Below are positions 36,578-55,812 of a stretch of 64,000 nucleotides of DNA, in pieces. The notes beneath the pieces were generated by a model. It saw nothing but the letters and a program-made list of their open reading frames with translations, did not search any database and was not told the DNA's origin. The position numbers and the translations under genes were made by a program. Position 1 is the stretch's first letter; each line of letters starts with the position of its first letter. Origin of the DNA: Nocardioides sp. QY071 (lineage in GTDB: Bacteria; Actinomycetota; Actinomycetes; Propionibacteriales; Nocardioidaceae). The stretch is taken from the NCBI RefSeq assembly GCF_029961765.1, contig NZ_CP124681.1, forward strand, positions 4,340,001 to 4,404,000, given 5' to 3'.

Positions 36578-36597
36578 CACCCCGCCACGATGCGGCC

Positions 36598-36630
36598 GAC
36601 CGCTGGCGGCGCGCTGGAGCGACGCTAGAG
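36598..36630 (-). promoter_or_regulatory. Triple 11-bp direct repeat, copy A
   Basis: In the minus sense three contiguous 11-mers are seen: CTCTAGCGTCG, CTCCAGCGCGC and CGCCAGCGGTC. The element ends 20 bp before the ATG of the secreted propeller gene. A -10-like CATCGT starts 5 bp after the third repeat, so the repeats would cover the -35 region. It is the same design as copies B, C and D in this window. Confidence 0.65.
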
Positions 36631-36741
36631 CCACCGGTCCGCGGATCCAGTGGTGCGCCAGCGGCACTCAAGTCACCGGTACGAGCCTGATCCCACGCAC
36701 CCGTGCGCCCACCGCCGCAACCGCCCCTGAAAGAGGACCCG

Positions 36742-37452
36742 ATGACCGACCAGATCCTGCTGCCGGGCCAGGCCGCCGCGCCGCCCGGCCCCGCCGACAT
36801 GACGATGATGTACGTGCTGCACCACGCCTTCCGCCGCGACGTTCGCGACTTCCGCGCGGTCGCCGCGGCCCTGCCGACCGACGACCGGCCCGCCTGGCAG
36901 CGGCTGGCGAGCCGCTGGCAGCTGTTCACCTCCGAGCTCCACTCCCACCACACCAAGGAGGACGAGATCCTCTGGCCGCTGCTGGCCGAGCGAGCCCGGG
37001 CCGCCGACGACGTCGACAGCCTGCGGGTCCTCGACGACATGGAGAGCGAGCACACGACCCTCGACCCGCTGCTCACCTCCTGCGACGCCGGATTCTCCGC
37101 GTTGGCCGGCCACCCCGACGCCGACCAGCTCTCCGACCTGCACACCGACCTCCTCGCCGACCTGGCCGATCTCGACCGTGCCCTCGACCGGCACCTCGGC
37201 CACGAGGAGTCCGCGGCGGTGCCGATCCTGCAGCGCTACGTGCCCGGCGAGGAGTGGGAGGTCGTCGAGCGGGAGAGGTTCCGCGGCCGCCCCTCGGTCG
37301 GCCATGCCCGCCGCTTCCTGCCGTGGATCTTCAAGGGCCTCGACGAGTCCGCAGCGGCCCGGGTCGCCGCGATCGGCGGGCCGCCGATGAGGCTACTGCT
37401 GGCCAGCTCGCGCCGCGGCTTCGCGCGACGGGAGGCCGAGATCTTCGGCTGA
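36742..37452 (+). CDS. Hemerythrin-like HHE domain protein
   Basis: A 236-residue cytosolic protein. The N-terminal four-helix HHE-type region shows His/Glu ligands in YVLHHAFRRDV, SELHSHHTKEDEILWP, MESEHTTLDPLL and DRHLGHEESAAVPIL, consistent with a di-iron oxygen- or NO-related site. The C-terminal part (RFLPWIFKGLDE) is typical of actinobacterial members. ATG at 36742 follows AAGAGGA. The last 60 bp overlap the 3' end of the histidine kinase gene on the other strand. Confidence 0.87.
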   Translation: MTDQILLPGQAAAPPGPADMTMMYVLHHAFRRDVRDFRAVAAALPTDDRPAWQRLASRWQLFTSELHSHHTKEDEILWPLLAERARAADDVDSLRVLDDMESEHTTLDPLLTSCDAGFSALAGHPDADQLSDLHTDLLADLADLDRALDRHLGHEESAAVPILQRYVPGEEWEVVERERFRGRPSVGHARRFLPWIFKGLDESAAARVAAIGGPPMRLLLASSRRGFARREAEIFG

Positions 37453-39486
37453 GCCCGAGTCCGAGTCAGCCTCGAGGACGGGAGCCGGCAGCCGCAGCTC
37501 GATCCGGGTGCCGGCCCCCGATCCCGCTTCCGATCCCGTCCCCGATCCCGTCCCCGGGCCCGAGGTCAGCCGGAGCACGCCACCGAGCTCCTGGGCCCGC
37601 TCCCTCATGGAGCGCAGCCCGATGCCGTCGGCCGCGCCCGGCGCCATGCCGATGCCGTCGTCGGCGACCGAGAAGACGATGTCCCCGTCGGCACGCCGGC
37701 GCAGGACGACGTCGCAGCGCGTGGCCCGGGCGTGGCGGCGGACGTTGAGCAGGGCCTCGCTGGCCAGCTGGTAGACGGCGACCTGGACGGGCACCTCCAG
37801 CAGCACGTCCTCGGCGACCGTGACCCGCACCACCAGGCCGTCGGCCGTGAAGCGGTCGGCGAGGGTGGACAGAGCAGTCGCGAGGTCGCCGTCGTCGAGG
37901 GCGAGCGGCACGAGCGAGCGGCTGAGCCGACGTACCTCCTCGCCCTGCTGGGTGAGCTCGCGCTCCAGCGCGTCGAACATCTCCTCGGACGCGCCCTGGT
38001 CCCGCATCCCGCGGGCGGCGATCAGGCCGAGCCGGATGCCGGCCAGCGCGGGACCGAGACCGTCGTGCAGGTCGCGACGCAGCATCCGCCGCTCCTCGTG
38101 GCGGATGCTCGTCATCCGGCGCCGGGCGGCGGTCAGCGCCTGCACCGACTGCATCAGGTCGATGGTCATGCCGACCAGGCCGGCGACCTCGGTCAGCATC
38201 CCGATGGTACGGCGATCGAGCCGCTCCCCGGGGCGGGGACTGGCCACCAGCAGGCCGACCGGGCGTCCGCGGCTGGTGAGCGCGATGGTGGCGTCGTGGT
38301 CGCGCACCGCGGGCGCCGCCGGCTCCTCACCGGCCTGGGCGGCCACGATGCGCACGTCGGCCAGCCGGAGGCTTCGGCTGAGGCGGGCGGCCAGGTCGTC
38401 GATGTCGTGGCCGCCCTGGCCGTCGACGCTCAGCAGCAGGCGGGCCGGGTCGGCTCCGGAGCCGTAGACGAGGTGGTCGACGCGCTGCTGCACCACTCGC
38501 CGCAGCGGTGTCGCGCCCAAGCCGACCAGCCCGACGGCCAGCGCCAGGGCGACGTCCGAATGACGCGGCAGCACCTGTGAGGCCACCCCGACCAGCAGCA
38601 GGTAGGCCAGCGCGATCGCGACCGTCATGACCGCCCACACGACTCCGCGGTTGACCCGTGCGTCGACGCCCCACAGCTGCTGGCCCAGCACCAGCACGAG
38701 CAGCGCGGCCGGCAAGAAGAGCTGGGCGACGAGCAGGAGGCTGCCGCTCACCTCGGCCGCGGTCCCCATCCAGTCCTCGGACATCGGCAACAGGAACGCG
38801 CCGAGCGCGACGACCATCGCGCCGTGTCCGGCAAGCAGCCAGCCGAGGCCACGCCGTTCGGCGGCGGGGGTGCGCAGCACTCGTCCCAGCAGCCAGAGCC
38901 ACACGAGCGCGCCGAACAGCGCGACCGTCCGGTCCGGCCAGAGTCCGAGGCGCTGTGACAACGACTGCCACCACGCCACCGGGACGCCGAACGGGTTGTC
39001 GGGCAGCCCGGGCAGGACGACCGTCAGGCTCGGCAGCGTGGAGACGACGATCGCCGCGATCGCGAAGGTCACCGCGGGCCAGCGCCGGCGCCCGCCCGGC
39101 ACGACGAGCAGCGGGACGACCGCGACGGTCGCGTAGACGCCCGGCACCCAGGCCCAGTACGGCAGGTAGATCGCGAGGTCCTGACCGGGCCAGGGGCCGT
39201 CGAGCGCGACGTACCCGGCCGCGAGGCCCGAGGCGCTGCAGCCGAGCGCGGTGAGCACCAGGATCCAGACGACGGGATGTCGCGAGCGCGGCAGCATCAT
39301 CAGCACGACGCCGCCGTAGACCGCGCCGGTGACCACGTCCATGATCCAGTCCGCGACGTTGGTGGGCGCGGTGCCGGTGCCGATCAGCGCAACCACCGCT
39401 CCGGCGGACAGCAGCCAGGCCGTGCCGGCGACCAGCCAGCCGAGGATCTGCCAGCGCAGCGGGGGCCGGGAGCGTGCGTCGGTCAC
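37393..39486 (-). CDS. Membrane sensor histidine kinase, NarL/DegS type
   Basis: A 697-residue kinase. About eight to nine N-terminal membrane helices (10-310) form the sensor, followed by a GAF-like cytosolic region. The HisKA_3 dimerisation domain has the phospho-acceptor His in RRDLHDGLGPALAG (about residue 485). The HATPase domain shows the N-box ASEALLNVRRHA, ADDGIGM and GIGLRSMRERA. Before the end is a Gly/Ser/Thr-rich repeat (GTGSGTGSEAGSGAG), and the tail overlaps the hemerythrin-like gene. GTG at 39486 overlaps the stop of the SARP-receiver gene, so the two form a coupled kinase/regulator pair. Confidence 0.92.
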   Translation of the reverse strand: MTDARSRPPLRWQILGWLVAGTAWLLSAGAVVALIGTGTAPTNVADWIMDVVTGAVYGGVVLMMLPRSRHPVVWILVLTALGCSASGLAAGYVALDGPWPGQDLAIYLPYWAWVPGVYATVAVVPLLVVPGGRRRWPAVTFAIAAIVVSTLPSLTVVLPGLPDNPFGVPVAWWQSLSQRLGLWPDRTVALFGALVWLWLLGRVLRTPAAERRGLGWLLAGHGAMVVALGAFLLPMSEDWMGTAAEVSGSLLLVAQLFLPAALLVLVLGQQLWGVDARVNRGVVWAVMTVAIALAYLLLVGVASQVLPRHSDVALALAVGLVGLGATPLRRVVQQRVDHLVYGSGADPARLLLSVDGQGGHDIDDLAARLSRSLRLADVRIVAAQAGEEPAAPAVRDHDATIALTSRGRPVGLLVASPRPGERLDRRTIGMLTEVAGLVGMTIDLMQSVQALTAARRRMTSIRHEERRMLRRDLHDGLGPALAGIRLGLIAARGMRDQGASEEMFDALERELTQQGEEVRRLSRSLVPLALDDGDLATALSTLADRFTADGLVVRVTVAEDVLLEVPVQVAVYQLASEALLNVRRHARATRCDVVLRRRADGDIVFSVADDGIGMAPGAADGIGLRSMRERAQELGGVLRLTSGPGTGSGTGSEAGSGAGTRIELRLPAPVLEADSDSGSAEDLGLPSREAAARAGQQ

Positions 39487-40730
39487 GGCCGGGCCAGTCG
39501 GGAGCGAGCGGCTCGCGCCACCGCCGAGCCGATGATCAGCTCGCCCCGGGCCACGCCGCGGATCGCCCGCAGCACGTCGTCGGCCTCCGCGGACTTCAGC
39601 AGGTAGCCGGCAGCGCCGGCCTGCAGCGCCGCTGCGACGTGATCGTCGTCCTCGTGCATCGTCATGACCAGCACCTTGAGCTCGGGGTGCTCGCGCGTCA
39701 GCTCGCCGGTCAGGTCGATGCCCGACTCCCCCGCGAGGTCGAGGTCCATCAGTACGACGTCGACGCCGCGAGCGACCAGCTCGCGGGCGCCGGCCGACTC
39801 GCCGGCCGCGCCGACCAGCTCGAGCCCGTCCAGCGAGCCGAGCAGGCCGGTCATGCCCATCCGGAACATCGGGTGGTCGTCGACCACGGCCACGCGGAGC
39901 ACCGCCGCCGGCTGGACCGCGGGCCCGGAGGCGACCCGCTGCTGCAGGATCGCGGTCTCGAGGGCGCCCACCGCGGGGCTGGCGTCGACGCCGAGCTCGT
40001 CGCGCAGCGCGTCGCGCAGGCGACGGAGCGCGGCGAGCGCGTCGACCTGCCTCTCGGCGCGGACCAGCGCCGCGGCGTACAGCAGCCAGAGCCGCTCCCG
40101 GTGGGGCTGGCCGGAGACCTCGGTCTCGAGCCTGCGGGCTGCCTCGGCGGCGTCCCCGCGCTGCATCCGGATCAGCTCCCGCACCTCCACCGCGGCGGTG
40201 CGGACCTCGTGCAGCCGGGCGCGCTCGACGGCGATGACCGGCTCCTCGGCGAGGTCGGCGTACGGCTCTCCGCGCCAGGCCGCCAGGGCGTCGTCGAGCA
40301 GGTCCGCGGCGGCGGCGAGGTCGTCGGGATCGGGATGGCCGGCGAGCAGCCACGGCCGGTCGCGGTCGGTGCGTGCGACGGCCCCGGCCGACCTGACCGC
40401 CGCCTCGAGCCTCGCCGCGTCGATGTCGTCGAGCGGGAGCCGCAGGGCGTAGCCCAGGGCCGAGGTCTGGATCACCGTGCCGGCCCCGCGGGGGGCCCGG
40501 TCCGGTTCGAGTGCCTTGCGCAGGCTCGACACGTAGCCCTGGATGGTGACCGCGTGGCTGGCCGGCGGCTCGTCACCCCACAGCGCGCCGGCGATGGTCT
40601 CCGGGCTGACCGGCTGCCCCCGGTGCAGGGCGAGCACGGCCAGCACCTGGCGGGGCTTGGGTGCCCCGAGGTCGAGCAGGCGGCCGCCCTCGACCTCCAC
40701 CTCGACCTGGCCGAGCACGCGCATCCTCAT
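39483..40730 (-). CDS. SARP-type (AfsR-like) DNA-binding/BTAD protein fused to a C-terminal response-regulator receiver domain
   Basis: A 415-residue regulator with an unusual order. Residues 1-95 are an OmpR-type winged helix of the SARP class (RVLGQVEVEVEGGRLLDLG, then KPRQVLAVLALHRG and TIQGYVSSLRKAL). Residues about 100-270 are the bacterial transcriptional activation (BTAD) helices. A receiver domain follows (about 290-405): acid pair VVDDHPMFRMG, phospho-Asp in VLMDLDLAG, Thr in VLVMTMHED, Lys in YLLKSAEA. All key receiver residues are present. There is no LuxR HTH. It is partner to the downstream histidine kinase (GTGA overlap). Confidence 0.92.
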   Translation of the reverse strand: MRMRVLGQVEVEVEGGRLLDLGAPKPRQVLAVLALHRGQPVSPETIAGALWGDEPPASHAVTIQGYVSSLRKALEPDRAPRGAGTVIQTSALGYALRLPLDDIDAARLEAAVRSAGAVARTDRDRPWLLAGHPDPDDLAAAADLLDDALAAWRGEPYADLAEEPVIAVERARLHEVRTAAVEVRELIRMQRGDAAEAARRLETEVSGQPHRERLWLLYAAALVRAERQVDALAALRRLRDALRDELGVDASPAVGALETAILQQRVASGPAVQPAAVLRVAVVDDHPMFRMGMTGLLGSLDGLELVGAAGESAGARELVARGVDVVLMDLDLAGESGIDLTGELTREHPELKVLVMTMHEDDDHVAAALQAGAAGYLLKSAEADDVLRAIRGVARGELIIGSAVARAARSRLARP

Positions 40731-40765
40731 CGCAGAGAGGCTACCGAGTTCCGGGTCGGGGGACG

Positions 40766-40802
40766 CCGGTATCGGGGACACTGGCGGGGTCCCCGACACC
40801 GG
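40766..40802 (-). terminator. Hairpin terminator after the propeller operon
   Basis: A 14-position stem with one A/C mismatch: CCGGT-A-TCGGGGAC pairs with GTCCCCGA-C-ACCGG around a 9-nt loop. It starts 15 nt after the stop of the last propeller gene and lies before the SARP-receiver gene, so it probably ends the upstream operon. No U-run. Confidence 0.6.
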
Positions 40803-40816
40803 CAGTGTGTTCCCTC

Positions 40817-42109
40817 TCAACGCCTCACCTTGGTCTTGGGGCTGGTCCACGACGTGCTCGCGAGGCCCGAGGTGCTGGCGGTGACCCGCACCGAGATCCG
40901 CTTGCCGCGGTCCTTGCCGGTGATCCGGTACGACGCCCTCGTGGCCTTCTTGATCGCCTTGCCGTTGCGCAGCCACTGGTAGGAGACCTTGCCCGGCGCC
41001 GGCGACCAGGTGAGGCCCTTGACCTTGAGCACCTTGCCGACGCGCGCCTTGCCGGCGACCTTCGGGGCCACGGCGAGCGTGAAGCTGCCGCCGCTGGTCT
41101 GGGGACCCTGGCTGCCGGGCGGGTCCGGGTACGTCGGCCGGACGGTCTGCAGCGCTGCATCGGTCCAGTGCGGGTCCGCGCCGCCCGGGATGGCCAGCTC
41201 GGGCTGCACCGCGCAGGCCAACGGCGCCGGCTTGACCACGATGCCGGTCGACTCCTGCCAGGCGATGGCACTGCCGTCCGGCGCGAACGTCGGGCTCGCG
41301 TAGCCGGGTCCGCGCGGGTCGGAAGCACACACGGGCGTCGGTGGGACGGGCGGCGATCCGTAGCGCACGTTGCCCTCGACCTGGTAGGTCCAGATGTGCG
41401 ACTGGTCGCCGTCGCCGCGCAGGGTGGCGAGGAGCGTCCCGTCGCGGGACACGGCCGGGTCCGACAGCTGGAGATACTCGCCCGAGTGGGCCCCGTCGTG
41501 GAACCACTGCTTCGTGCTGGTCGCCAGCTCGAAGAGCTGGATCGCGTCGAAGTCCTTCCCGTTGACGATCAGCCGCGAGCCGGTGACCCAGCTCGGGTTG
41601 CCGTAGAGGGTGGTGCCGTAGACGTCCGGCGAGGTCAGCCCGGTGGCCGCGGTCACGGCGGTGGCCCAGCGGGTCTTGCAGGCCAGGCCCGGCGGGCAGC
41701 TATAGCGGCTGTAGGAATAGGCGATGAGCCCGCCGTCGGGCGAGACCGCCGCCTTGTCGATGGCGCCTCCGGTGACCTGTCCGGCGGAGTCACGCAGGTC
41801 CGGCGGGTCGATCGAGTTCAACACCGTTCCCCACTGGTCCATCCGGTGCAGGACCGAGCCGTGGACCGCGACGACCGTCCCGTCGTCGGCCCCGGTCGGC
41901 GACCTCCAGGGCGCTGCGGCGGTGCCGTCGGTGGTGAGCCGCCGCTCGCCCGAGCCGTCGGGCTTGGCGACGTAGACGTCATGGCCCTTGAGGTAGACGA
42001 TCGTGCCCGGGCCGGGATCGGCCGCGGCCGACGCCTCCGGCGTCTCGGCCAGGGTCAGGGTCGACAGGGCGATCAGCCCTGCCGTGAGGGTGGTCAGCAG
42101 CCGTCTCAT
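40817..42109 (-). CDS. Secreted TolB-like propeller protein, paralog 1
   Basis: A 430-residue secreted protein. Signal peptide 1-31 (ending ASAAA), then TolB-like blades (VYLKGHDVYVAKPDGSGERR, AAVSPDGGLIAYSY, AVSRDGTLLATLRG, TFAPDGSAIAWQ), then a C-terminal Ig-like wall module with VGKVLKVKGLTWSPAPGK, SYQWLRNGKAIKKAT and SYRITGKDRGKRISV. Cys pairs (CPPGLAC; CASD..LAC) may form disulfides. The start overlaps the stop of paralog 2 (ATGA). It is one of four tandem paralogs with a FAD oxidase at the head of the operon. Ligand unknown. Confidence 0.85.
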   Translation of the reverse strand: MRRLLTTLTAGLIALSTLTLAETPEASAAADPGPGTIVYLKGHDVYVAKPDGSGERRLTTDGTAAAPWRSPTGADDGTVVAVHGSVLHRMDQWGTVLNSIDPPDLRDSAGQVTGGAIDKAAVSPDGGLIAYSYSRYSCPPGLACKTRWATAVTAATGLTSPDVYGTTLYGNPSWVTGSRLIVNGKDFDAIQLFELATSTKQWFHDGAHSGEYLQLSDPAVSRDGTLLATLRGDGDQSHIWTYQVEGNVRYGSPPVPPTPVCASDPRGPGYASPTFAPDGSAIAWQESTGIVVKPAPLACAVQPELAIPGGADPHWTDAALQTVRPTYPDPPGSQGPQTSGGSFTLAVAPKVAGKARVGKVLKVKGLTWSPAPGKVSYQWLRNGKAIKKATRASYRITGKDRGKRISVRVTASTSGLASTSWTSPKTKVRR

Positions 42110-43401
42110 CGGCGGACCTTCACTTTCTTGCTCGTCCATACGGAGCCGGCCAGGCCGGCGGTGTCGGCGGTGACGCGGACCGAGATCCGCTTGCCGCGGT
42201 CCTTCCGGGTGATCCGGTACGACGCCTTGGTGGCCTTCTTGATCGCCTTGCCGTTGCGCAGCCACTGGTAGGTGAGCGCGCTCGGCGTGGGCGTCCAGGC
42301 GCCGCCCTTGACCTTGAGCACCTTGCCGGGCCGCGCCTTGCCGACCAGGCGGGGCGCGGCCTGCAGCGCGAGCCCGGTGACTGGCGTCTTGCTGCCCGGA
42401 TCCTGCTGCTGGTCGGGCTGATTGCCGGGCCCGGCCGGCAGCTCCGGCTCGGCCCAGGACACGTCGCGAGCGCCGGGAAGCACGAGCGTCGCGTCCGCAT
42501 CGCAGTCCAGCGGGTCCGGCTTGACCCACACGCCCTCGGGCTGCGACCACGCCAGCGCGCTGCTGTCCGGGGCGAAGGCCGGGCTGCCCTGGCCCTGCGC
42601 GGCGGGGAGCTGGCAGATCGTGGCTGCCGGCGGCAGGTAGCTGCCCGTCACGATGTCGCCGTTGACCTCGTAGACCGTGACCCTGCTGTCGGCGCCCGTG
42701 CCCCGGGTGGTCGCCAGCAACCGGCCGTCGCGGGAGACCGCGGGCTCGGCGAGGCGGACGTACTTGGGGAACTCCCCGTCGTGGAACCAGTCCCACGAGT
42801 CGTCCCCGATGTCGAGCAGCCGCAGCCCGTAGCGGTCGGGGCCGTTGCCGATCAGCCGCGAGTCCGAGACCCAGCTCGGGTTGTCGCCGCGCAGGAAGCC
42901 GTACTCGATCGACGGCGACGTCCCGTCGGCGCTGGCGATGCCGGTCGCGAAGTAGTCGGCGCAGACCGCCAGCTCGCAGTGGTAGTCCCGATAGGTGTAG
43001 GCGACCCTGCCGCCGTCGGGAGAGACAGCGGCCTTGACGACCGTGCCGTCGTAGTGGACCTCGGGACCGTCGTCGATCGCCGGCGGGTCGAAGGAGTCGA
43101 GGATCGTCCCCGAGCGGTCCATCCGGTAGACCATGGAGTCGCGGGCGGCCACGATGGTTCCGAGGTTGTCGCCGGTCGGCGAGACCCACGGGTCGCTCGC
43201 GGTGCCGTTGGTGGTCAGCCGCCGCTCGCCCGTGCCGTCGGGGCGGGCCAGGTAGACGTCGTACCCCTTGACGTAGACCAGGGTGCCCGGCGCCCCGGCC
43301 TGCGCCGCGGCCGCCTGCGGTGGGCCGGTGACACCCGATCCCACGGCGAGCCCGGTCAGCGCCGTCGCGCCGGCCGCCGCGACCGAGAGCAGCCTCCTCA
43401 T
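42106..43401 (-). CDS. Secreted TolB-like propeller protein, paralog 2
   Basis: A 431-residue secreted protein with the same layout: signal peptide (about 1-33), blades (VYVKGYDVYLARPDGTGERR, SPTGDNLGTIVAARD, AVSPDGGRVAYTY, PSWVSDSRLIGN, AVSRDGRLLATTRG, AFAPDSSALAWSQ), a Pro/Gln linker, and the C-terminal module QWLRNGKAIKKATKASYRIT with RKDRGKRISVRVTA. Cys pair CELAVC sits where paralogs 1, 3 and 4 also have one. It is most like paralog 3. Both ends overlap neighbours by ATGA, implying translational coupling and recent tandem duplication. Confidence 0.86.
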   Translation of the reverse strand: MRRLLSVAAAGATALTGLAVGSGVTGPPQAAAAQAGAPGTLVYVKGYDVYLARPDGTGERRLTTNGTASDPWVSPTGDNLGTIVAARDSMVYRMDRSGTILDSFDPPAIDDGPEVHYDGTVVKAAVSPDGGRVAYTYRDYHCELAVCADYFATGIASADGTSPSIEYGFLRGDNPSWVSDSRLIGNGPDRYGLRLLDIGDDSWDWFHDGEFPKYVRLAEPAVSRDGRLLATTRGTGADSRVTVYEVNGDIVTGSYLPPAATICQLPAAQGQGSPAFAPDSSALAWSQPEGVWVKPDPLDCDADATLVLPGARDVSWAEPELPAGPGNQPDQQQDPGSKTPVTGLALQAAPRLVGKARPGKVLKVKGGAWTPTPSALTYQWLRNGKAIKKATKASYRITRKDRGKRISVRVTADTAGLAGSVWTSKKVKVRR

Positions 43402-44678
43402 CGCCGCACCTTCTTGGCGGTGCTGGTCCAAGTCGTGCTGGGCAGGCCGGTCGCGCCGGCGGTGACCCGCACCGCGATGCGCCTGCCGCGGTCCTTGCGG
43501 GTGATCCGGTACGACGCCTTGGCGGCCTTCTTGATCGGCTTGCCGTTGCGCAGCCACTGGTAGGTGAGCACGCTCGGCGCGGGTGACCAGGCGCCGCCCT
43601 TGACCTTGAGCACCTTGCCGACACGCGCCTTGCCGACCAGGTGGGGTGCGGTCTGCAGCGCGAGCCCGGTGACGGGTGTCGTGCCGCCCGGATCCTGCTG
43701 CTGGTCGGGCGCGGCGGGCAGCTCCGCCGTGGTCCAGGAGACCTCGGTGCCACCGGCGACGACCCGGGCCGCCTCGGCCGCGCAGTCCAGCGGGTCCGGC
43801 TTGACCCAGACGCCGTCGGGCTGCGACCACGCCAGCGCGCTGCCGTCGGGCGCGAAGGCGGGGCTGCCCTGAGCCGCGACCGGGTCGTTGACGCACGCCC
43901 GCGTCGGCTCCACCGGCGTCGTGTCCGTGCGGATGTCGCCCCTGAGCCGGTACGTCGCGACATGTGCCCCGGCGCCCCCGCCGCGCACCAGCGCCAGCAT
44001 GGTGCCGTCGCGGGAGGTGACCGGCTCGCTGAGCTGCACGGCCGTAGGGCTGGTCCCCTCGTGGAACCAGTCCTTCGCCGGCTTCTTGCCCAGGTCCAGG
44101 AAGTCGACACCGAGCTCGCCGCTGTCGTTGAGGATCAGCCGGGAGTCGGTCACCCAGCTCGGGTTGTCCTCGCTGGCCTGGCTCTCGCCCGAGGGCGGGG
44201 TGAGGTGATCAGCAGCGGTGATCGCGGTGGCCCAGACCGGACCGCAGACCCACTGGCAGCTGCGGCCCTCGTAGGAGTAGGCGATCTTGGTGCCGTCGGG
44301 CGAGACCGCCGCCGTGTCCAGGTCGGGCCCGAGCGGGTTGCCCCACACGTCGATGAGGTTCGGCGGGTCGATGTTGTTGAGCGGGCTGCCGGTGATGGTC
44401 ATCCGGTGGATCAGGGAGCCGCGCACGGCGACGACCCGGCCGTGGTCGTCACCCGTCGGCGAGCGGTACGGCGAGGTCGCGGTGCCGTCGGTGGTGAGCC
44501 GGCGCTCCCCGGTGCCGTCGGGGTGCGCCGCGTAGACGTCGTACCCCTTGACGTAGAGCAGGGTGCCCGGCAGGTCCGGGCTGTCCACCGCGGCGGCCGT
44601 GGTGGCACCCGCGGCCAGGCCACTCAGGGCGATCACGCCGGTTGTGGCGGCCGAGGCGGCATGGAGCAAGGTCCTCAT
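43398..44678 (-). CDS. Secreted TolB-like propeller protein, paralog 3
   Basis: A 426-residue secreted protein; signal peptide about 1-30. Blades include LLYVKGYDVYAAHPDGTGER, SPTGDDHGRVVAVRG, AVSPDGTKIAYSY, PSWVTDSRLILN and AFAPDGSALAWSQ. The linker TPVTGLALQTAPHLVGKAR is nearly identical to that of paralog 2, and the C-terminal module has QWLRNGKPIKKAAKASYRIT. Cys pair CQWVC. ATGA overlaps at both ends. Stretches near the ends are so similar to paralog 2 that gene conversion is possible. Confidence 0.86.
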   Translation of the reverse strand: MRTLLHAASAATTGVIALSGLAAGATTAAAVDSPDLPGTLLYVKGYDVYAAHPDGTGERRLTTDGTATSPYRSPTGDDHGRVVAVRGSLIHRMTITGSPLNNIDPPNLIDVWGNPLGPDLDTAAVSPDGTKIAYSYEGRSCQWVCGPVWATAITAADHLTPPSGESQASEDNPSWVTDSRLILNDSGELGVDFLDLGKKPAKDWFHEGTSPTAVQLSEPVTSRDGTMLALVRGGGAGAHVATYRLRGDIRTDTTPVEPTRACVNDPVAAQGSPAFAPDGSALAWSQPDGVWVKPDPLDCAAEAARVVAGGTEVSWTTAELPAAPDQQQDPGGTTPVTGLALQTAPHLVGKARVGKVLKVKGGAWSPAPSVLTYQWLRNGKPIKKAAKASYRITRKDRGRRIAVRVTAGATGLPSTTWTSTAKKVRR

Positions 44679-45928
44679 CGCTTCACCTTCTTGGGTGCGC
44701 TGGTCCAGGTCGCGCTGGTCAGGCCGGGCCTGCTGATCGTCAGGCGCACGGAGATCCGCTTGCCGCGGTCCTTGCGCGTCACGCGGTAGGACGCCTTCTT
44801 GGCCTTCTTGATCGGCTTACCGTTGCGCAGCCACTGGTAGGAGACCGCGGTGGGCGCCGGCGACCAGGCGCCGGCCTTGGCCTTGAGCACCTTGCCGACC
44901 TTCGCCTTGCCCTTGACCTTGGGCGCGGTGGTGGCGGTGAAGGTGCCGTGCTGAGTCCCGACCGGCTCGGGGTTGTAGGTCGCGGCAGACCAGTCGGGAG
45001 CCGAGGCACCGGGGATCAGCAGGTGGAAGCTCACGGCGTCGCAACCCACCGTGACGTCGTCCGCGACCCAGACACCGTCGTCGGCCTGGAAGGCCAGTGC
45101 CCTGCTGTCCGGGCCCCACGTGGGGCTCACGAGCGCTCCGCCGTCGTCGTCGTCCCACGTGCACCGGTGGTCCGGAGGGAGCGGGACCGGGCCACTGGTG
45201 ACGTCCCTGTCGGCGTCGTAGGTGGAGATGCCGTCGTTGCCCTGGTAGCCGGCCGCGCCGGCAAGGCGCAGACCGTCCGGGGAGAGCTCGACGTCGGTGA
45301 TCCCGCCCTGCGTGTCGAACCAGTGCACGGCGCCGCCACCGAGATCGTGGACCATCACCTCGGAGCCGGAGCCGCCGCTCTGCAATGTTCGGCTGCTGCC
45401 CGCCCACGAGGGCATCTTGAAGTAGGTGGACCCGTCCGTCTCCGGGTCGGTGGCCCGGTCGGAGGCCGTGTAGCCCGTGGCGGTCGAGCATCCCGTTCCC
45501 GTGCAACCGGTGTTCACCATGCTGTAGGCGATCTTGACGCTGTTCGGTGCGATCGCGACCTGGCCGAGGTTGGTGAGCGAGCCCTTCAACGCTCGCGGCG
45601 TGAAGCGGTTGAGGGGGGTGCCGCCCTGGCGCATCCGGACGATCTGCCCGTCGTGGCCGGCGGCGATCGTTCCGTCGTCGGCCATCGACGGCGAGAAGTA
45701 CGGCCAGGACGCCGTGCCGTCCGCGGTGACCTGCCGCTGGCCGCTTCCGTCGGGACGGGAGATCCAGACGTTGTGGTCCTTGACGTACACGAGGGTGCCG
45801 GCAGACGCCGCCACCATCTGGCTCTCCGTGCTGGCCGCGGTCGCCGTCTGCTGCCCCAGGACGGGAGATCCACCGGCCAGTACCAGTGCCATCGCCGCCA
45901 CGGCAGTGCGGGTTCGCTGAGTTGTCAT
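44675..45928 (-). CDS. Secreted TolB-like propeller protein, paralog 4
   Basis: A 417-residue secreted protein. ATG at 45928 (MTTQRTRTAVAAMALVLAGG) is preferred because GGTGGAAG precedes it; an ATG 21 nt further upstream lacks a site. Blades: VYVKDHNVWISRPDGSGQR, SPSMADDGTIAAG, AIAPNSVKIAYSM, ELSPDGLRLAGAAG, TWGPDSRALAFQ. The C-terminal module is VGKVLKAKAGAWSPAPTAVS with RKDRGKRISVRLT. Cys pair CTGTGC. It resembles paralog 5 more than 1-3 in its N-terminal half (DHNVWI; ATGYTASD). It begins 54 bp after the FAD oxidase stop. Confidence 0.86.
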   Translation of the reverse strand: MTTQRTRTAVAAMALVLAGGSPVLGQQTATAASTESQMVAASAGTLVYVKDHNVWISRPDGSGQRQVTADGTASWPYFSPSMADDGTIAAGHDGQIVRMRQGGTPLNRFTPRALKGSLTNLGQVAIAPNSVKIAYSMVNTGCTGTGCSTATGYTASDRATDPETDGSTYFKMPSWAGSSRTLQSGGSGSEVMVHDLGGGAVHWFDTQGGITDVELSPDGLRLAGAAGYQGNDGISTYDADRDVTSGPVPLPPDHRCTWDDDDGGALVSPTWGPDSRALAFQADDGVWVADDVTVGCDAVSFHLLIPGASAPDWSAATYNPEPVGTQHGTFTATTAPKVKGKAKVGKVLKAKAGAWSPAPTAVSYQWLRNGKPIKKAKKASYRVTRKDRGKRISVRLTISRPGLTSATWTSAPKKVKR

Positions 45929-45982
45929 GACTTCCACCTGTTCCTGCATCGTTGCCCGGGCCGCGTGGCGGACCGGATCGGG

Positions 45983-47263
45983 TCAGTGGCCGATGACGCC
46001 GGCCGGGTCGTGGTGCTCCCGAACGCGCTCCAGCCGCTCGCGCATCTCGGCAGGCCATGCCGTCTCGAGCGCGCTCGGCTGGTTCAAGGAGCCGACGAAG
46101 TTGGGCTGGAAGCCGCCGCTCGCCCACGGCGCCATCGCCTTTGCCAGCCCGCCGACAGCGGCCGGCACCGGCCCGGCGAACAGCTCGGGCACGGGGGCGC
46201 TGACCACGAAGAGCCCGTACGCCGCGTCGCGGCCCACGACCGAGTCCGGGCGCTGCGGCGCCTGGGCCAGGCGGCCGCCGAGCCGGCGTACCTCCACGGC
46301 GGCCAGTGGGACCTCGACCTGCGGACCGGCGGCCGCGAGCAGTGCCCGGGCGGCAGCGGGGTCGAAGTCGCGCAGGAGCGCTCCCGCCTCCAGCGCCGGC
46401 ATCGGCTGGTCGGGGTCGGCATGGACGGCGCCGAGCGCGGTCACCGGCAGCTCGGCGACGGTGTCGACGATCGGCTCGGCCAGCTTGCGCAGCGGCTCGA
46501 CCAGAGCCGCAGCGACCTCCACGTCACCCACCATCGCGACCCGGAGGTGCACGACGAACCGGCCGCGCAGTGGCGCGGGGACGAAGTCGAGGTCGGGCAG
46601 ACGCAGCAGGGCGGCGGAGGTGTTGGCCTGCTCCGGCACGAGGGCGGACCAGACCGCCCACTCGGTCAGCACCCGCTCGGCATCGGCAGCGTCGAAGAAC
46701 AGGCCGCCGCCGTACACCGTGGTCAGCTCGACCAGGCCGAGCTCGACCGAGGTGACCACACCCGGCAGGTGCTTCCCGCCGAGCAGCGCGGCGAACAGGT
46801 CCGGATGACTCGTGGCCGAGACGGTGAGGAGCTCGCCGGCGCCCGTCACGATCTCGGCGGAGCGCACGAAGTCGCTCGCCCACCCGTAGCTGCGGCCGAG
46901 CGGGCTGAGCCCGCCGCCGAGCAGGTAGCCGACCGCGCCGACTCCGGGCGCGGAGCCGGCCAGCGGCGCCAGCCCGTGCGGCGCGGCGGCCGCGATCACC
47001 TCGGCCCAGGTCGCTCCCGCACCGATCCGGGCGAGCCGCATCTCCGGATCGACCTCGACCCCGGCGAGGCCGCGGGTCAGCAGGGCGACACCGCCCTCGA
47101 TGGCGTGGGTCCAGCCGTGACCGGTGCCGACGGGGTGGACCCGCTCACCCAGAGCGGTGGCAGCGCGGACGATGCCGGCCACCTCCTCGGCGGTACGGGG
47201 CTCGACCACCTCCCGCGGGGCGTGGGCGTGGGCGAGGTTGAACACGGGGAGGGCTGCAGACAT
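45983..47263 (-). CDS. FAD-binding (PCMH-type) oxidoreductase
   Basis: A 426-residue flavoenzyme of the berberine-bridge/glycolate-oxidase superfamily. The FAD domain shows EPRTAEEVAGIVRAAT, GTGHGWTH (a His that may link FAD covalently), GAGATWAEVIAAAAPHGLAP and GAVGYLLGGGLSPLGRSYG. The second covalent-link Cys of classical berberine-bridge enzymes is absent. The C terminus (RVREHHDPAGVIG) is the usual end motif. No signal peptide, so cytosolic. ATG at 47263 after AAGGAA. It heads the operon with four secreted propeller genes; the substrate is unknown and the link to the propellers unclear. Confidence 0.87.
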   Translation of the reverse strand: MSAALPVFNLAHAHAPREVVEPRTAEEVAGIVRAATALGERVHPVGTGHGWTHAIEGGVALLTRGLAGVEVDPEMRLARIGAGATWAEVIAAAAPHGLAPLAGSAPGVGAVGYLLGGGLSPLGRSYGWASDFVRSAEIVTGAGELLTVSATSHPDLFAALLGGKHLPGVVTSVELGLVELTTVYGGGLFFDAADAERVLTEWAVWSALVPEQANTSAALLRLPDLDFVPAPLRGRFVVHLRVAMVGDVEVAAALVEPLRKLAEPIVDTVAELPVTALGAVHADPDQPMPALEAGALLRDFDPAAARALLAAAGPQVEVPLAAVEVRRLGGRLAQAPQRPDSVVGRDAAYGLFVVSAPVPELFAGPVPAAVGGLAKAMAPWASGGFQPNFVGSLNQPSALETAWPAEMRERLERVREHHDPAGVIGH

Positions 47264-47303
47264 GGGATTCCTTCGCATCGGGTGAGGTGGCCAGACTCCG
47301 TGG

Positions 47304-47336
47304 GCGCACTGGAGCGCCGCTGGGAGCTGGCTGGAA
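47304..47336 (-). promoter_or_regulatory. Triple 11-bp direct repeat, copy B
   Basis: In the minus sense the three 11-mers are TTCCAGCCAGC, TCCCAGCGGCG and CTCCAGTGCGC. The CCAG cores lie exactly 11 bp apart. The element ends 40 bp before the FAD oxidase start and would drive the five-gene operon. A -10-like GAGTCT follows 5 bp after the third repeat. A decamer array abuts the upstream edge. Confidence 0.65.
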
Positions 47337-47410
47337 CTGGCTGGGGTTGGCTGGGGTTGGCTGGGGTTGGCTGGGGTTGGCTGGGGTTGGCTGGGGTTGG
47401 CTGGGGTTGG
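47331..47410. repeat. Tandem decamer array CTGGGGTTGG, seven perfect copies
   Basis: Seven perfect copies of CTGGGGTTGG occupy 47341-47410, preceded by one degenerate copy (CTGGAACTGG, 47331-47340) that overlaps copy B of the 11-bp element. It lies in the promoter region of the FAD oxidase operon. The plus strand is G-rich with regular GGGG and GG runs, so a G-quadruplex or slippage-prone tract is possible. It is not a CRISPR: there are no spacers. Confidence 0.9.
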
Positions 47411-47442
47411 CTGGCGAGCTCGACGTGTGCGCTGATCCGCGG

Positions 47443-47530: not shown

Positions 47531-48763
47531 TCATCGGCGCACCCGGACCGGCTTGCTCGTGACCTTCACGGCCGGCTTGTCCGGCGCCTTGACGACGACC
47601 CTGATCCGCAGCCGGTGCCCGCGGTCGGCGGCGACGACCTTGTGCTTGCGACCCTTGCCGACCTTCTTTCCGTCACGCAGCCAGGTGATGGTGACCTTGC
47701 CTGTCGCTGCCAGCCCGCTGACGTCGGCGCGCAGCACCTTGCCGACCCGTGCCTTGCCCTTGATCCGCAGCTCTCCGGTCCCGGTCCCGTTCCCGTTCTG
47801 CTGGCCGTCCTGTGCCGGAGCGCTCAGCGGCGCCGGCGACCAGTCCGGCTCGGACCCGCCGGACAGCAGCAGCGTCGAGGGCTCGCCGCAGTCGTGGGCA
47901 CCGGAGCGGGTCCAGACGCCGTCGCTCTCCTGCCACGCCAGCGCGTCGCTGTCGGGCGCCCAGGTCGGATGGTCGATGGCGGTCGGGCCGATCTGGCACA
48001 GCGGCGAGGGAACGGCGGGCGGCGGCCCGGAGACCGCGTTGCCGCTCACGTCGTACCAGATGATCCAACGGTTGTCGTCGAAGCCGCGTACGGCGGCCAG
48101 CAGCCTGCCGTCCGGGCTCAGCTCGGCGTTCCCGAGGTCGGTCGACCCCTCGCCGTACACGTCCTCGTCGTCGAACCAGTACTGCGGCTCCTGGCCCAGG
48201 TCATGGAGCTGCGTCTGCGAGTGGTAGCCACCGGACTGCAGGGTGCGACCGTTGCCGATCCACGACGGGTCCCAGAAGAAGGTGGTGCCCAGCGTCGCCG
48301 GATCGGTGAGGTGGTCGGCGGCCGTGTAGCCGGTGGCGGAGCGGTAGCCGAACGGGCTCACGTAGTTCGTGATGCTGTAGGCGATTCGCTGGCCGTCGGG
48401 CGAGATCGCGGCGCTGGTGATGTTGCCGTCGACGTTCGAGCCGACCGACGTCGGCAGGGACGGCGGGTCCATCCTGGTGAGGACCCTGCCCTGCTGGTCC
48501 ATCCGGACCAGCAGCGGCCCCTGGGTGGCCACCACGACGCCGCCGTCGGACTGGGTCGGCGAGCCGTAGGGCAAGGTCGCCGTGCCGTCCCGGGTCAGCG
48601 CACGCTGGCCCGATCCGTCGCCAGCGGCGATCCACACGTTGTGGTCCTTGATGTAGACGAGGGTGCCGCCCGGAGCGGCGGCGGCAGCGGGCCTGGGCGC
48701 CGCGACCGGAGCGGCGACGAGAGCGCCCCCGGCCAGCAGAGCGAGGGCGAGCAGGCGGGACAT
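47531..48763 (-). CDS. Secreted TolB-like propeller protein, paralog 5
   Basis: A 410-residue secreted protein; signal peptide about 1-29 (LLALALLAGGALVAAPVAAP). Blades: VYIKDHNVWIAAGDGSGQR, SPTQSDGGVVVATQG, AISPDGQRIAYSI, ELSPDGRLLAAVRG, TWAPDSDALAWQE. The C-terminal module is a divergent version (ITWLRDGKKVGKGRKHKV, ADRGHRLRIRV). It lacks the first Cys pair found in paralogs 1-4. ATG at 48763 after GAAGGAG. It is its own transcription unit behind copy C of the 11-bp element. Confidence 0.86.
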   Translation of the reverse strand: MSRLLALALLAGGALVAAPVAAPRPAAAAAPGGTLVYIKDHNVWIAAGDGSGQRALTRDGTATLPYGSPTQSDGGVVVATQGPLLVRMDQQGRVLTRMDPPSLPTSVGSNVDGNITSAAISPDGQRIAYSITNYVSPFGYRSATGYTAADHLTDPATLGTTFFWDPSWIGNGRTLQSGGYHSQTQLHDLGQEPQYWFDDEDVYGEGSTDLGNAELSPDGRLLAAVRGFDDNRWIIWYDVSGNAVSGPPPAVPSPLCQIGPTAIDHPTWAPDSDALAWQESDGVWTRSGAHDCGEPSTLLLSGGSEPDWSPAPLSAPAQDGQQNGNGTGTGELRIKGKARVGKVLRADVSGLAATGKVTITWLRDGKKVGKGRKHKVVAADRGHRLRIRVVVKAPDKPAVKVTSKPVRVRR

Positions 48764-48808
48764 GGTTCTCCTTCGGACGACACGGGATGTCACGCCGATC
48801 GTCGGCGG

Positions 48809-48841
48809 GCGCGCTGGAGCCGCGCTGGCGTCCCGCTGGAG
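48809..48841 (-). promoter_or_regulatory. Triple 11-bp direct repeat, copy C
   Basis: In the minus sense: CTCCAGCGGGA, CGCCAGCGCGG and CTCCAGCGCGC, the best-conserved copy. It ends 45 bp before the ATG of paralog 5. A -10-like GACGAT follows about 6 bp after the third repeat. It lies in the 141-bp gap shared with the divergent DUF3000 gene. Confidence 0.7.
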
Positions 48842-52269: not shown

Positions 52270-52869
52270 GTGTCCGAGCACCGGCGTCACCACCGCCCCG
52301 CACCGCGGGAGGCCGCCTTCTTCGACGAGTACGTCGGCGCCGCCGACCCCGCGCTGCTCGCCGAGGCCGCCGAGAGAGCCGCGGTGCTCCTGATCCGCGG
52401 CGCTCGCACCAGCGACGACACCGGGGTCGCCGAACGACTGGTCCACCTCGCCGACACCGAGGGCATCGAGGCGATCGCCGAGGTCTGGTCCCACGCCGCC
52501 GCCGACTCCCTGGCCGGCTGCCTGTGGCGGCTCTACCTGCTCCGCTCGTGGGTGTACGCCGACCCGGCCGGGGTCGCCCGGCAGTTCGAGGCCGGCCGCA
52601 GCCGCGCCGAGTTCGCCCGCGTCGTCGCCGGGGTCGCCGACCCGCCCGGACCCGACGAGCTGCGGGCCATGGTCGACGAGGTGCTCCGCGGGATCGCCGC
52701 TGGCGAGTTCGCCGACGTGCTGCTCCGGGCCGCCGCCTTCGCCCGCGTCGTCGCGGCGGGCCGCGCCACGCTGCACGACGTACCCGACGCCGACGTCCGG
52801 CGGATGCTCGTGCTCGGCGAGCAGCTCGAGGCGGCCGGACACCTGGAGCTCGCGAGCCGGTTGGCCTGA
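52270..52869 (+). CDS. Conserved hypothetical protein, helical
   Basis: A 199-residue, largely helical cytosolic protein with no known motif. It starts at GTG 52270 (MSEHRRHHRPAP) and contains FDEYVGAADPALLAEAAERA, EVWSHAAADSLAGCLWRLYL and LEAAGHLELASRLA. The codon pattern and the strongly helical, Ala/Asp/Glu-rich composition look like a genuine actinobacterial gene. I do not recognise a function. It is divergent from the solute-binding protein gene and convergent with the Ig-like genes. Confidence 0.75.
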   Translation: MSEHRRHHRPAPREAAFFDEYVGAADPALLAEAAERAAVLLIRGARTSDDTGVAERLVHLADTEGIEAIAEVWSHAAADSLAGCLWRLYLLRSWVYADPAGVARQFEAGRSRAEFARVVAGVADPPGPDELRAMVDEVLRGIAAGEFADVLLRAAAFARVVAAGRATLHDVPDADVRRMLVLGEQLEAAGHLELASRLA

Positions 52870-52887
52870 GCACTGGTTCCGAGGCCG

Positions 52888-52992
52888 TAGAATAGGCAAT
52901 CGAGCACGCCGGGCCGCGGCAGCCCCGGGTCCCAAATTCAGCCGCTACGAGCGGCCCTGCGCCGTGAGGCGCTCCCGGTCCGGCGTGCTCGA
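52888..52992 (+). ncRNA. Candidate small structured RNA (or elaborate terminator) with its own -10 box
   Basis: A near-consensus -10 box, TAGAAT (52888-52893; a weak -35 CTGAGC lies 16 bp upstream), would place the start at about 52900. Exactly there begins a 13-bp perfect closing stem: TCGAGCACGCCGG (52900-52912) pairs with CCGGCGTGCTCGA (52980-52992). Inside are two perfect hairpins, GCCGCT-ACG-AGCGGC and GCGCC-GTGA-GGCGC, and a possible CCGGG/CCCGG inner stem. The predicted RNA is about 93 nt, with both ends paired. It lies between convergent genes, so a bidirectional terminator is the alternative. Confidence 0.45.
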
Positions 52993-53006
52993 CCTCTCCC
53001 GCCGAC

Positions 53007-53765
53007 CTAGCGCACGACGACGCGATAGCTGGCGCTCGACGCGGTCACGGTCGAGGAGCCGAGGAAGCGGATCCTCAGCTTGTGCTTGCCCTTCGTCAGC
53101 TTCTTGGTCGTCAACGTCACCGACGTCGCGCCGTTGGGGAGAGTCCCCTGCGCGACCAGCCGCTTTCCGTCGCGGATCTGGACCTGACCCGACGCGGGGC
53201 GCGACGCGGAGACGACGATCTTGACCCGCACGCGCCGCTTCGACACCTTTGCGGAGCCCACCTTCACGGTCGAGCCCACCGCCGCCTGGGAGTGGCTCGG
53301 CACCCCGATGGCGGGATCGACGACATAGCTGAGCGTCCGGCTCACGGAGGGCGCCTGGGTCGCCGTACCGGTGTAGCGCGCCGACACCTGGTAGGTGCCG
53401 ACCTGGTCCGTGGGCATGGTCATCCGCGCCGTGCCCTCCTCGTCGACGGCGACCTCCTCGCCGATCTGCGCGCCATCGAGGTAGAAGGCCACCGTGCCGT
53501 TGGCGGGGTCGACGCTCTCGTAGACGTCGACGGTCGCGATCGCCTCGATGGGGTAGGCGTTGGGCGAGCCGGGCGGCCAGGTCCGCCACCCGCTCAGCAC
53601 CAGGGCGGTCACGGTCTCGAAGGCCGCGGTGCTCACCTGGGGGACGGCGTACGCCGAGGGGGCCGGTGCTGCTGTGGAGACGCCTGCCAGCGTCGTGGCC
53701 AGCGATACCGCCAAGGCGGCGGTCCCACGCAGCGCGACGCCTCGACGACGGGATCGGCAGCTCAT
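53007..53765 (-). CDS. Secreted Ig-like repeat protein, small
   Basis: A 252-residue secreted protein. Signal peptide about 1-40 (LRGTAALAVSLATTLAGVST). It holds one Big_3-like domain (ATVDVYESVDPANGTVAFYL, VDEEGTARMTMP, GTYQVSARYTGT) and a C-terminal domain with KVSKRRVRVKIVVSASRP and TTKKLTKGKHKLRIRFLGS. That C-terminal domain matches the end of the upstream gene, so the two are paralogs. ATG overlaps the upstream stop (ATGA). Probably wall-associated; function unknown. Confidence 0.85.
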   Translation of the reverse strand: MSCRSRRRGVALRGTAALAVSLATTLAGVSTAAPAPSAYAVPQVSTAAFETVTALVLSGWRTWPPGSPNAYPIEAIATVDVYESVDPANGTVAFYLDGAQIGEEVAVDEEGTARMTMPTDQVGTYQVSARYTGTATQAPSVSRTLSYVVDPAIGVPSHSQAAVGSTVKVGSAKVSKRRVRVKIVVSASRPASGQVQIRDGKRLVAQGTLPNGATSVTLTTKKLTKGKHKLRIRFLGSSTVTASSASYRVVVR

Positions 53766-55762
53766 CGCACCCTCACTCGGTAGGTCCGGCTCGACTCGGC
53801 CACGCTCGGCGAGCCGAGATAGCGCACCGTCAGCCTGCGCTTGCCGGGCTTCAGCCTCTTCGTCGTCAAGGTGATCGACGTCGAGCCCGCGCTCAGCACG
53901 CCGGTGGCGACGACGCGCCTGCCTGCCCTGATCTCGACGATCCCGGTGGCAGGGGTCGCGGCCGACACCGCGATCCTCGCCTTCACGCGGTGCCGGGCCA
54001 GGCTCTTGAAGCTGGCCTTGACACCCGACGGGGACAGGGCCGGCGGGATGGAGCTGCCCGGGTCGGATGGTCCGGACGGGCCTGGGGTCACCGTGAGCGT
54101 GAGTCTCGCCTGCGATGCACGCACGTTCACGTCACCCGTGTAGTCCAGCGTGAGGTCGTGCGTTCCGACCGGCAGTGCGATGGTCCCGTGGCCGGCGACG
54201 AGTGTCACCGTGTCCAGGAGCGTGGTGCCCTCCCTCACGGCGACGGACCCGGTCGGCGTCACGACGGAGCCGGATGCGACGACGTCGACGGATGCCGGGG
54301 TGCCGGCGACGACGGTGTCCGGTGTCACCGAGATCGCCGAGGACGCCTGCTCGACCGTGAGCATCCGCGCGGGGCTGAGCGAGCCGTCGTGGGTCGCGCT
54401 CCCGAGATAGCGCGCGGTCACCGAGCGCTGCCCGACGGCCCCGGGTGCGAGGGAGAGACGTGCGCTCGCGTCCGTGTCCACCGGGGACCGGCCGACCTCG
54501 TTGCCGTCCACGAAGAAGGCCACCTGGCCCGTCGCGCGAGCCGCCGCGCCCTCGACCGCGACGCGGGCGGTGGCAAGGACCTCGTCGCCTCCGACGGTGG
54601 CGGTGCCCCGGTCCAGCTGGAGCGAGGTGGTCGTCGGGATCGCGGTGCTGCCGGGCTCCTTGATCTGGATCGTGGTGCGCGCGACCGCCGACTCGGCGGT
54701 GGTCGCGTCGCCGGTGTTGGAGACCCGGATCTCCCAGCTCCCGGTGTGGGTGGCGGCGAACTGGCTCAGGTCGAAGCGCGCCGCCTGGTAGCCGCCGGGG
54801 TAGGGCCGTCCGGGCTCGATGACCACCGGGTCCCCACCGTCGGTGCGCTGCGCCACGACCCTGATCGCGCCCCTCGGCGACTCCCTCAGGAGGAACGGGG
54901 TGTCGTTTCGCGCGACGGCGTTCATGATGAGGGGCTCGCCCCGCGTCAGCACGGTGGCCGAGAAGGTGGCATCGATCCGGTTGGGGATCCGCTCGACGAC
55001 CAGGTCGCCCACGAAGCTCCCCGTGCCGGGAGCGGTGGCCCCGTAGGCGGCATCGCCGGCGTACTCGACCTCCACGAAATGAGTACCGGGCTGAAGGTGA
55101 TCGTCGGCCGCCCCCAGCAGCGTTCGTCCGTTCGCATCGATACTGCCCGTGCCGACCGAGCGCTGTGCGCTCGTGTGCAGCCTGACCGCGGTGCCGGCGG
55201 TCGGGCGCACCGCGGTCGGTTCGTCGGCCGCGAACTCGACCGGGATGAAGGCGCTGTACGGCACCGTCGTGCTCGGCAGCCGCACCGTGCCCGGGATGAA
55301 CTGCGGGACGAACCGCTCGTAGGTGGTGCCGCCCACCGTGCCGTCGCCGGCCGCGACGTCGACCCGGTACGACGTGCCGATCGTCAGGCCCGTGGTCGGG
55401 ATCTGGAACTGGGCGGGGAGCTCCTTGGTCTCGAGGTCGATGCCGTTCATCGACACGGTCGCGTTGATCGGGTCCCCCGTGCCCCCGAACGCTCTCACGT
55501 TGAGCAGCAGCGGGTCGCCGTACCTGGGATCGGCCACCTTCGTCGCGCTGACCTTGAAGGCCGGCGCGGCCGTCGCGATGGCCGGCGGGCCGGCGTTCGC
55601 TCCCGCGACGCCGAGGGCGGCCGGCAGACCGACCAGGCCTGCGAGCAGCGTCGCGATCAGCGCTGCGCGGGCTCCGGGTCGTGCGATGCGACCACCTGGC
55701 GTCCGTACCGCGCGCGCGCGGCGGGAGTCGGCGGATCTGGATGCTTCTCTCGGATGTCTCAC
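53762..55762 (-). CDS. Secreted multi-domain Ig-like repeat protein
   Basis: A 666-residue protein. The N terminus is Arg-rich, then a hydrophobic signal segment (ALIATLLAGLVGLPAALGVA, about 34-53). Several Ig-like/Big_3_5 modules follow: VSMNGIDLETKELPAQFQIP, FVEVEYAGDAAYGAT, ATGQVAFFVDGNEVGRSPVD, TGSVAVREGTTLLD. The C-terminal domain is the same type as in the small partner (TTKRLKPGKRRLTVRYLGS). GTG at 55762 is the first start after copy D of the 11-bp repeats. No LPxTG signal is present. It probably strengthens or decorates the envelope. Confidence 0.83.
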   Translation of the reverse strand: MRHPREASRSADSRRARAVRTPGGRIARPGARAALIATLLAGLVGLPAALGVAGANAGPPAIATAAPAFKVSATKVADPRYGDPLLLNVRAFGGTGDPINATVSMNGIDLETKELPAQFQIPTTGLTIGTSYRVDVAAGDGTVGGTTYERFVPQFIPGTVRLPSTTVPYSAFIPVEFAADEPTAVRPTAGTAVRLHTSAQRSVGTGSIDANGRTLLGAADDHLQPGTHFVEVEYAGDAAYGATAPGTGSFVGDLVVERIPNRIDATFSATVLTRGEPLIMNAVARNDTPFLLRESPRGAIRVVAQRTDGGDPVVIEPGRPYPGGYQAARFDLSQFAATHTGSWEIRVSNTGDATTAESAVARTTIQIKEPGSTAIPTTTSLQLDRGTATVGGDEVLATARVAVEGAAARATGQVAFFVDGNEVGRSPVDTDASARLSLAPGAVGQRSVTARYLGSATHDGSLSPARMLTVEQASSAISVTPDTVVAGTPASVDVVASGSVVTPTGSVAVREGTTLLDTVTLVAGHGTIALPVGTHDLTLDYTGDVNVRASQARLTLTVTPGPSGPSDPGSSIPPALSPSGVKASFKSLARHRVKARIAVSAATPATGIVEIRAGRRVVATGVLSAGSTSITLTTKRLKPGKRRLTVRYLGSPSVAESSRTYRVRVR

Positions 55763-55779
55763 CTCGGCACCCTGTCCGG

Positions 55780-55812
55780 GGGCGTTGGAGCGCGGCTTGA
55801 GACCGACTGGAG
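55780..55812 (-). promoter_or_regulatory. Triple 11-bp direct repeat, copy D
   Basis: In the minus sense: CTCCAGTCGGT, CTCAAGCCGCG and CTCCAACGCCC. It ends 17 bp before the GTG of the Ig-like gene, in the 62-bp gap after hrpA. A weak -10-like CAGGGT lies about 6 bp after the repeats, which would make the transcript nearly leaderless. It matches copies A-C in register, number and orientation. Confidence 0.6.

Follow-up and report, generated by a model that had tools for sequence, protein, structure and literature searches.

Genes and direct repeats at the locus

The window analyzed in this study is a 64,000-nucleotide stretch of the Nocardioides sp. QY071 genome. It encodes a 415-amino-acid regulator (39483–40730, minus strand), here termed the SARP-receiver, in which Trans_reg_C and BTAD domains are followed by a C-terminal Response_reg domain. 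The start of the adjoining minus-strand gene (37393–39486), which encodes a membrane histidine kinase with HisKA_3 and HATPase_c domains, overlaps the regulator stop. On one side of this pair are a minus-strand gene for a secreted PD40 (WD40-like) β-propeller protein (34880–36577) and, divergent from it, a plus-strand gene for a hemerythrin HHE-domain protein (36742–37453) with a weak resemblance to Fe-S repair proteins. On the other side, four minus-strand genes for secreted propellers (40817–45949; individually 44675–45949, 43398–44678, 42106–43401, and 40817–42109) are joined by overlapping ATGA stop/start junctions and form one operon with a gene for an FAD-binding oxidase (45983–47263, minus strand). 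The oxidase is homologous to the BagK/FevA1 and BagG/FevA2 oxygenases at a level below the family cut-off. Two further minus-strand genes encode secreted propeller 5 (47531–48763) and a secreted Ig-like (Big_3_5) protein (53762–55762).

Triple 11-bp direct repeats had been noted at four minus-strand places in the window, 17–45 bp before start codons, and all four are present. The layout comprises three 11-mers with the core C(C/A/T)AG, then 4 bp, then an xAxxxT hexamer that resembles a −10 element. Operator 1 (36597–36629, minus strand; TCTAGCGTCGC TCCAGCGCGCC GCCAGCGGTCG) is located 20 bp from the ATG of the PD40 gene at 36577, with the hexamer CATCGT at 36587–36592. Operator 2 (47303–47335, minus strand; TCCAGCCAGCT CCCAGCGGCGC TCCAGTGCGCC) precedes the FAD oxidase–propeller operon by 40 bp (ATG at 47263) and has the hexamer GAGTCT at 47293–47298. 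The corresponding distance for operator 3 (48808–48840, minus strand; TCCAGCGGGAC GCCAGCGCGGC TCCAGCGCGCC; hexamer GACGAT at 48798–48803) is 45 bp to the ATG of propeller 5 at 48763. For the divergent operator 4 (55779–55811, minus strand; TCCAGTCGGTC TCAAGCCGCGC TCCAACGCCCC; hexamer CAGGGT at 55769–55774), it is 17 bp to the GTG of the Ig-like gene at 55762. The core, proposed to be CCAG throughout, is not uniform: operator 1 begins with CTAG, and operator 4 reads CCAG-CAAG-CCAA. Two sites had been overlooked. One is operator 5 (36646–36678, plus strand; TCCAGTGGTGC GCCAGCGGCAC TCAAGTCACCG), which is upstream of the divergent hemerythrin-like gene and extends to 36688 with its hexamer GAGCCT (36683–36688). 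The other is a remote site at genome position 330833.

In operators 1 and 4, the distance from the end of the hexamer to the start codon is 9 and 6 nt, respectively, and the mRNAs made from these two promoters are therefore probably leaderless. Immediately upstream of the FAD operator is a 10-bp tandem array (CCAGCCAACC, ∼7 units, 47336–47420); a related locus (L002) has just a few of these units. Since PimR reportedly uses a secondary operator with 10-bp spacing, the array might add binding sites. Alternatively, it might be a plain minisatellite. The intergenic stretch that separates propeller 1 from the regulator (40730–40817) contains an inverted repeat (ggggacactggcggggtcccc). This repeat may act as a terminator, in which case transcription of the regulator could be independent of the propeller operon. 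The regulator gene itself is not preceded by a triple-repeat operator.

Promoter geometry and genome-wide specificity

In all five window operators, the xAxxxT hexamer begins exactly 15 nt past the first base of the last heptamer. The same geometry was evaluated at 22 sites, namely those of the window together with sites from three close relatives and from distant SARP loci. The A and T of the hexamer fall 16 and 20 nt past this base in 22 of 22 sites, where the register of L017 was picked with the −10 in view and those of L009, L014, L045, and L071 were picked among more than three repeats; no such choice of register was involved for the window and L001–L003 sites. At any other offset, both nucleotides are found in at most one of the 22 sites. 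According to the published rule for SARP promoters, repeats are 11 bp apart and the 3′ repeat is 8 bp from the −10 element, and the afsS promoter carries TTCAGC as its −35 and CACTGT as its −10 (PMC10936776). The TCCAGC of the window aligns with this TTCAGC at the equal position. The geometry of the window operators equals both the published rule and the arrangement of the afsS promoter.

The pattern CHAGN7CHAGN7CHAGN11ANNNT has five matches in the 5.7-Mb genome, four of which are within 12.3 kb at the locus, and its reversed control has one match. The repeat without the −10 position is not rare. An exact CCAGN7CCAGN7CCAG occurs three times in the genome (two in the window) versus 12 times for its reversed control, and thus shows no excess. 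Loose repeats (YCMR triplets) without the −10 are likewise not enriched, with 13 in the window versus 8.8 ± 3.6 in shuffled sequence. Specificity comes only from the repeat together with the fixed −10 position, and operators of this design are readable from sequence at about one chance match per genome. Across 147 genomes of the genus, 151 pattern matches were counted versus 58 for the control (summed from the per-genome table). When one mismatch was permitted in seven genomes, the count was no higher than that of the control, and the positions alone are informative.

The sole remote match in the genome, at position 330833, is 4 Mb away and ∼100 bp upstream of a gene for a secreted protein with RCC1-propeller and Ig-like repeats. 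In G135, the orthologue of this gene (84% identical) lies 59 bp downstream of a site with one mismatch. The gene and site in G140 are identical copies and add little weight. Most of the genes behind these operators encode secreted propeller or Ig-like proteins.

A sequence-only model (R1) was also built from 11 sites with operator 4 held out. It ranks the four window training sites highest in the genome and operator 4 fifth, with nothing else above operator 4, which is the best non-training match among the 150 of 17,483 first-look candidates that were scored. The remote site is not among the listed matches of R1, probably because just these 150 candidates were scored. The rule that combines a triple 11-bp repeat with a −10 at a fixed offset finds SARP promoters in other Nocardioidaceae as well, including sites upstream of genes for relatives of the bagremycin/ferroverdin FAD oxidases. 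In each of six genomes (G008, G010, G032, G038, G066, and G102), between three and six sites of the form CAAGTCGGCTCCCAGTCGGCCTCAAG are scattered, with the −10 at the equal offset, and these probably belong to the regulon of another SARP.

Conservation of operators and their association with SARP genes

The operators recur upstream of orthologous genes in relatives. The PD40 operator is kept in L001, the propeller 5 operator in L002, and the Ig-like operator in G034 and G442. The FAD operator is found in L001, L002, L003, and G442, and with one mismatch in G125 and G135. The operator of the hemerythrin-like gene is kept in L001, L002, G125, G135, and G442, and no site was found upstream of the HHE gene in L003. 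G442, which was found after the pattern had been fixed and took no part in defining it, carries an additional site upstream of a second secreted Ig-like gene. Orthologous sites are 94% identical at core positions versus 56% elsewhere, a difference that is partly owed to the way in which sites were picked. In the FAD promoter of L004/G146, the number of repeats is just two, and the offset position lacks a −10. The region of L004 that separates a secreted Ig-like gene from the FAD oxidase (8459–8655) holds divergent promoters whose repeats run in both directions, again without a −10 at the usual offset. In L001 (N. daeguensis), propeller 5 is gone and a propeller-5-like promoter region (5485–5620) is now directly upstream of the FAD oxidase.

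Among 29 further FAD-oxidase loci of Nocardioides, the operator is accompanied by a SARP gene at most 8 kb away in 20, and both are missing from the other nine. No locus is discordant (Fisher 1e-7). Six of the 29 were chosen via the pattern, and without them the counts are 14 and nine (p = 1.2e-6); the loci are not phylogenetically independent, and one of the negatives is a 3.9-kb contig. The SARPs beside these operators include the large kind that carries AAA_16. The original prediction that the repeats are operators of one regulon is supported by this co-occurrence, by their conservation, and by the genome-wide pattern.

A SARP under probable phosphorylation control as the likely activator

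The proposed binding protein had been described as a SARP with a receiver domain, and Pfam searches agree with that description. Trans_reg_C (37.8 bits) and BTAD (94 bits) both score above cut-off, and Response_reg scores 80.3 bits. The SARP part aligns with EmbR and AfsR, and the receiver aligns with VraR/NarL. An OmpR-type domain followed by BTAD, 11-bp repeats, and 8-bp spacing to the −10 place the regulator among SARPs, and its receiver residues and adjoining histidine kinase place it among response regulators. The order winged helix–BTAD–receiver is not that of OmpR/PhoB proteins, and the length of 415 amino acids with a receiver as sole C-terminal domain is not that of large SARPs (AfsR-like, SARP-LAL). 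The receiver pocket is intact, with D284/D285, the phospho-acceptor D329, T357, and K379. The AfsR contact residues W74, P79, S91, R94, and K95 are conserved, and Q48, T88, and R92 are changed to K, G, and S, respectively. Since the base-contacting R92 and T88 are among the changed residues, the specificity of AfsR is not transferable to this regulator.

We conclude, with a probability of roughly 0.86, that the sites are operators for a SARP-type activator, that the SARP-receiver at 39483–40730, under the control of phosphorylation, is their most likely cognate activator, and that the regulon includes at least six promoters. In the mechanism that we infer, which runs from phosphotransfer to DNA binding and activation by the SARP-receiver, two or three protomers of the SARP would sit side by side on one face of the DNA, one per 11-bp repeat, and would cover the place of the missing −35 element. 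The bound SARP would then recruit RNA polymerase to the weak xAxxxT hexamer. The adjoining histidine kinase is expected to control the regulator by phosphorylating its NarL-like receiver at Asp329. The predicted regulon consists of the FAD oxidase–propeller operon, propeller 5, the PD40 and Ig-like genes, the divergent hemerythrin-like gene, and the remote RCC1-propeller gene. That an envelope or oxidative signal is sensed is a guess.

Several other explanations for these observations were considered. The operators could be bound by another winged-helix regulator, either of the OmpR/PhoB type or another BTAD protein, with the SARP-receiver being a mere neighbor. Two further BTAD proteins, and just two, are encoded in the genome, and PhoP-type regulators are reported likewise to bind 7-bp repeats with 4-bp spacers (PMC4832192). 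However, four of the five pattern matches surround the SARP-receiver gene, all 20 loci with a FAD operator have a SARP gene within 8 kb, the nine loci that lack such a gene also lack the operator, and the 8-bp spacing to the −10 is a feature of SARP promoters. We therefore regard binding by a different regulator as unlikely. It is far less probable that the repeats have no operator function and are chance or low-complexity GC-rich motifs spread through common descent of promoters. The lack of enrichment of the repeat without its −10 and the 10-bp CCAG minisatellite next to the FAD operator would fit such an origin. They are outweighed by a −10 geometry that is fixed at 22 of 22 sites, by orthologous sites that are 94% identical at core positions versus 56% at the positions between them (in part through the way in which sites were selected), and by the shared design of remote and unrelated promoters.

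A further scenario accepts SARP-type activation but holds that the adjoining kinase does not phosphorylate the SARP-receiver, which would instead use its domain as a pseudo-receiver or be subject to cross-talk. The inverted domain order relative to ordinary response regulators speaks for this scenario, which we consider unlikely, if a little less so than binding by another protein. Nevertheless, the receiver retains the Asp pair, the phospho-accepting Asp329, Thr357, and Lys379, and the HisKA_3 kinase gene, which overlaps the regulator gene, is kept beside it in four relatives (L001–L004). Phosphorylation control of the SARP-receiver remains the preferred reading. Together with operators that are readable from sequence, a SARP with a phospho-receiver beside a kinase delimits a regulon of secreted propeller and Ig-like proteins that is open to testing.

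SARPs are known mainly as activators of antibiotic clusters that are controlled by ATPase/TPR domains or by their level of expression. A review of the family distinguishes just small, medium, large, and SARP-LAL types (PMC10972967). Our literature search found no SARP with a C-terminal receiver and, as the original prediction had supposed, no description of the present regulon. As far as the literature searched shows, the operator class is already known, and the SARP-receiver architecture and the secreted-protein regulon are undescribed. Among the closest counterparts is AfsR with the afs box at afsS of Streptomyces coelicolor (PMC10936776). AfsR likewise combines an OmpR-type domain at its N terminus with BTAD, and the 11-bp direct repeats of the afs box cover the −35 region, with an equal distance from the last repeat to a weak −10 and with TTCAGC in place of the similar TCCAGC. 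AfsR differs in having NOD and TPR in place of the receiver, two repeats rather than three, and targets in antibiotic regulation. A triple repeat is not new, since the PimR operator of Streptomyces natalensis already has three heptamers with 4-bp spacers (PMC5930380). In that case, however, the consensus is CGGCAAG, the operator lies off the −35, the regulator is a SARP-LAL, and pimM is the single target. BagI/FevR are SARP activators that are required for production in the bagremycin/ferroverdin biosynthetic clusters, where they are clustered with the homologous FAD-dependent oxygenases BagK/FevA1 (PMC6692506). They are small SARPs, and no receiver, kinase, or secreted propellers are reported with them. 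EmbR of Mycobacterium tuberculosis (PDB 2fez) is the best sequence match among solved structures and also joins a SARP domain to a C-terminal phospho-signaling domain, which is FHA in place of a receiver. OmpR/PhoB response regulators share the winged helix, the receiver, and 11-bp direct repeats, but their receiver is N-terminal and they lack BTAD.

Of 392 genomes searched across the order, seven encode the SARP-receiver, and these come from a single genus; G135, from the genus search, brings the number to eight. In a phylogenetic tree, the SARP domains of these proteins form one clade (100/99), which groups (91/92) with large SARPs encoded beside FAD and/or HHE genes in Nocardioides, Phycicoccus, Nostocoides, and Gordonia. 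The loci of these large SARPs have 11-bp CCAG/CAAG triplets upstream of FAD, HHE, or MMPL-HHE operons, and the related SARPs in L006, L009, and L045 carry AAA_16. The simplest reading of these sequence relationships is that the C-terminal sensor half was exchanged and the operator code was retained, in a direction that the tree leaves unfixed. A more specific proposal, which we make only tentatively, is that a large SARP of the Nocardioides/Pimelobacter lineage swapped its ATPase/TPR half for a NarL-type receiver and a histidine kinase, kept the 11-bp code and the FAD/HHE targets, and then recruited dispersed genes for secreted propeller and Ig-like proteins. This would have yielded a two-component SARP whose regulon serves the cell surface instead of antibiotic production. 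In L030, L031, and L035, a SARP gene is near a separate pair of HisKA_3 kinase and NarL-type receiver genes, an arrangement that possibly corresponds to the state before fusion. An MMPL transporter gene followed by an HHE gene is found in L006 (16474–14183), L029 (16330–14102), L045 (16501–14321), and L071 (16439–14298), each with triple 11-bp repeats upstream of the MMPL gene and a large SARP nearby.
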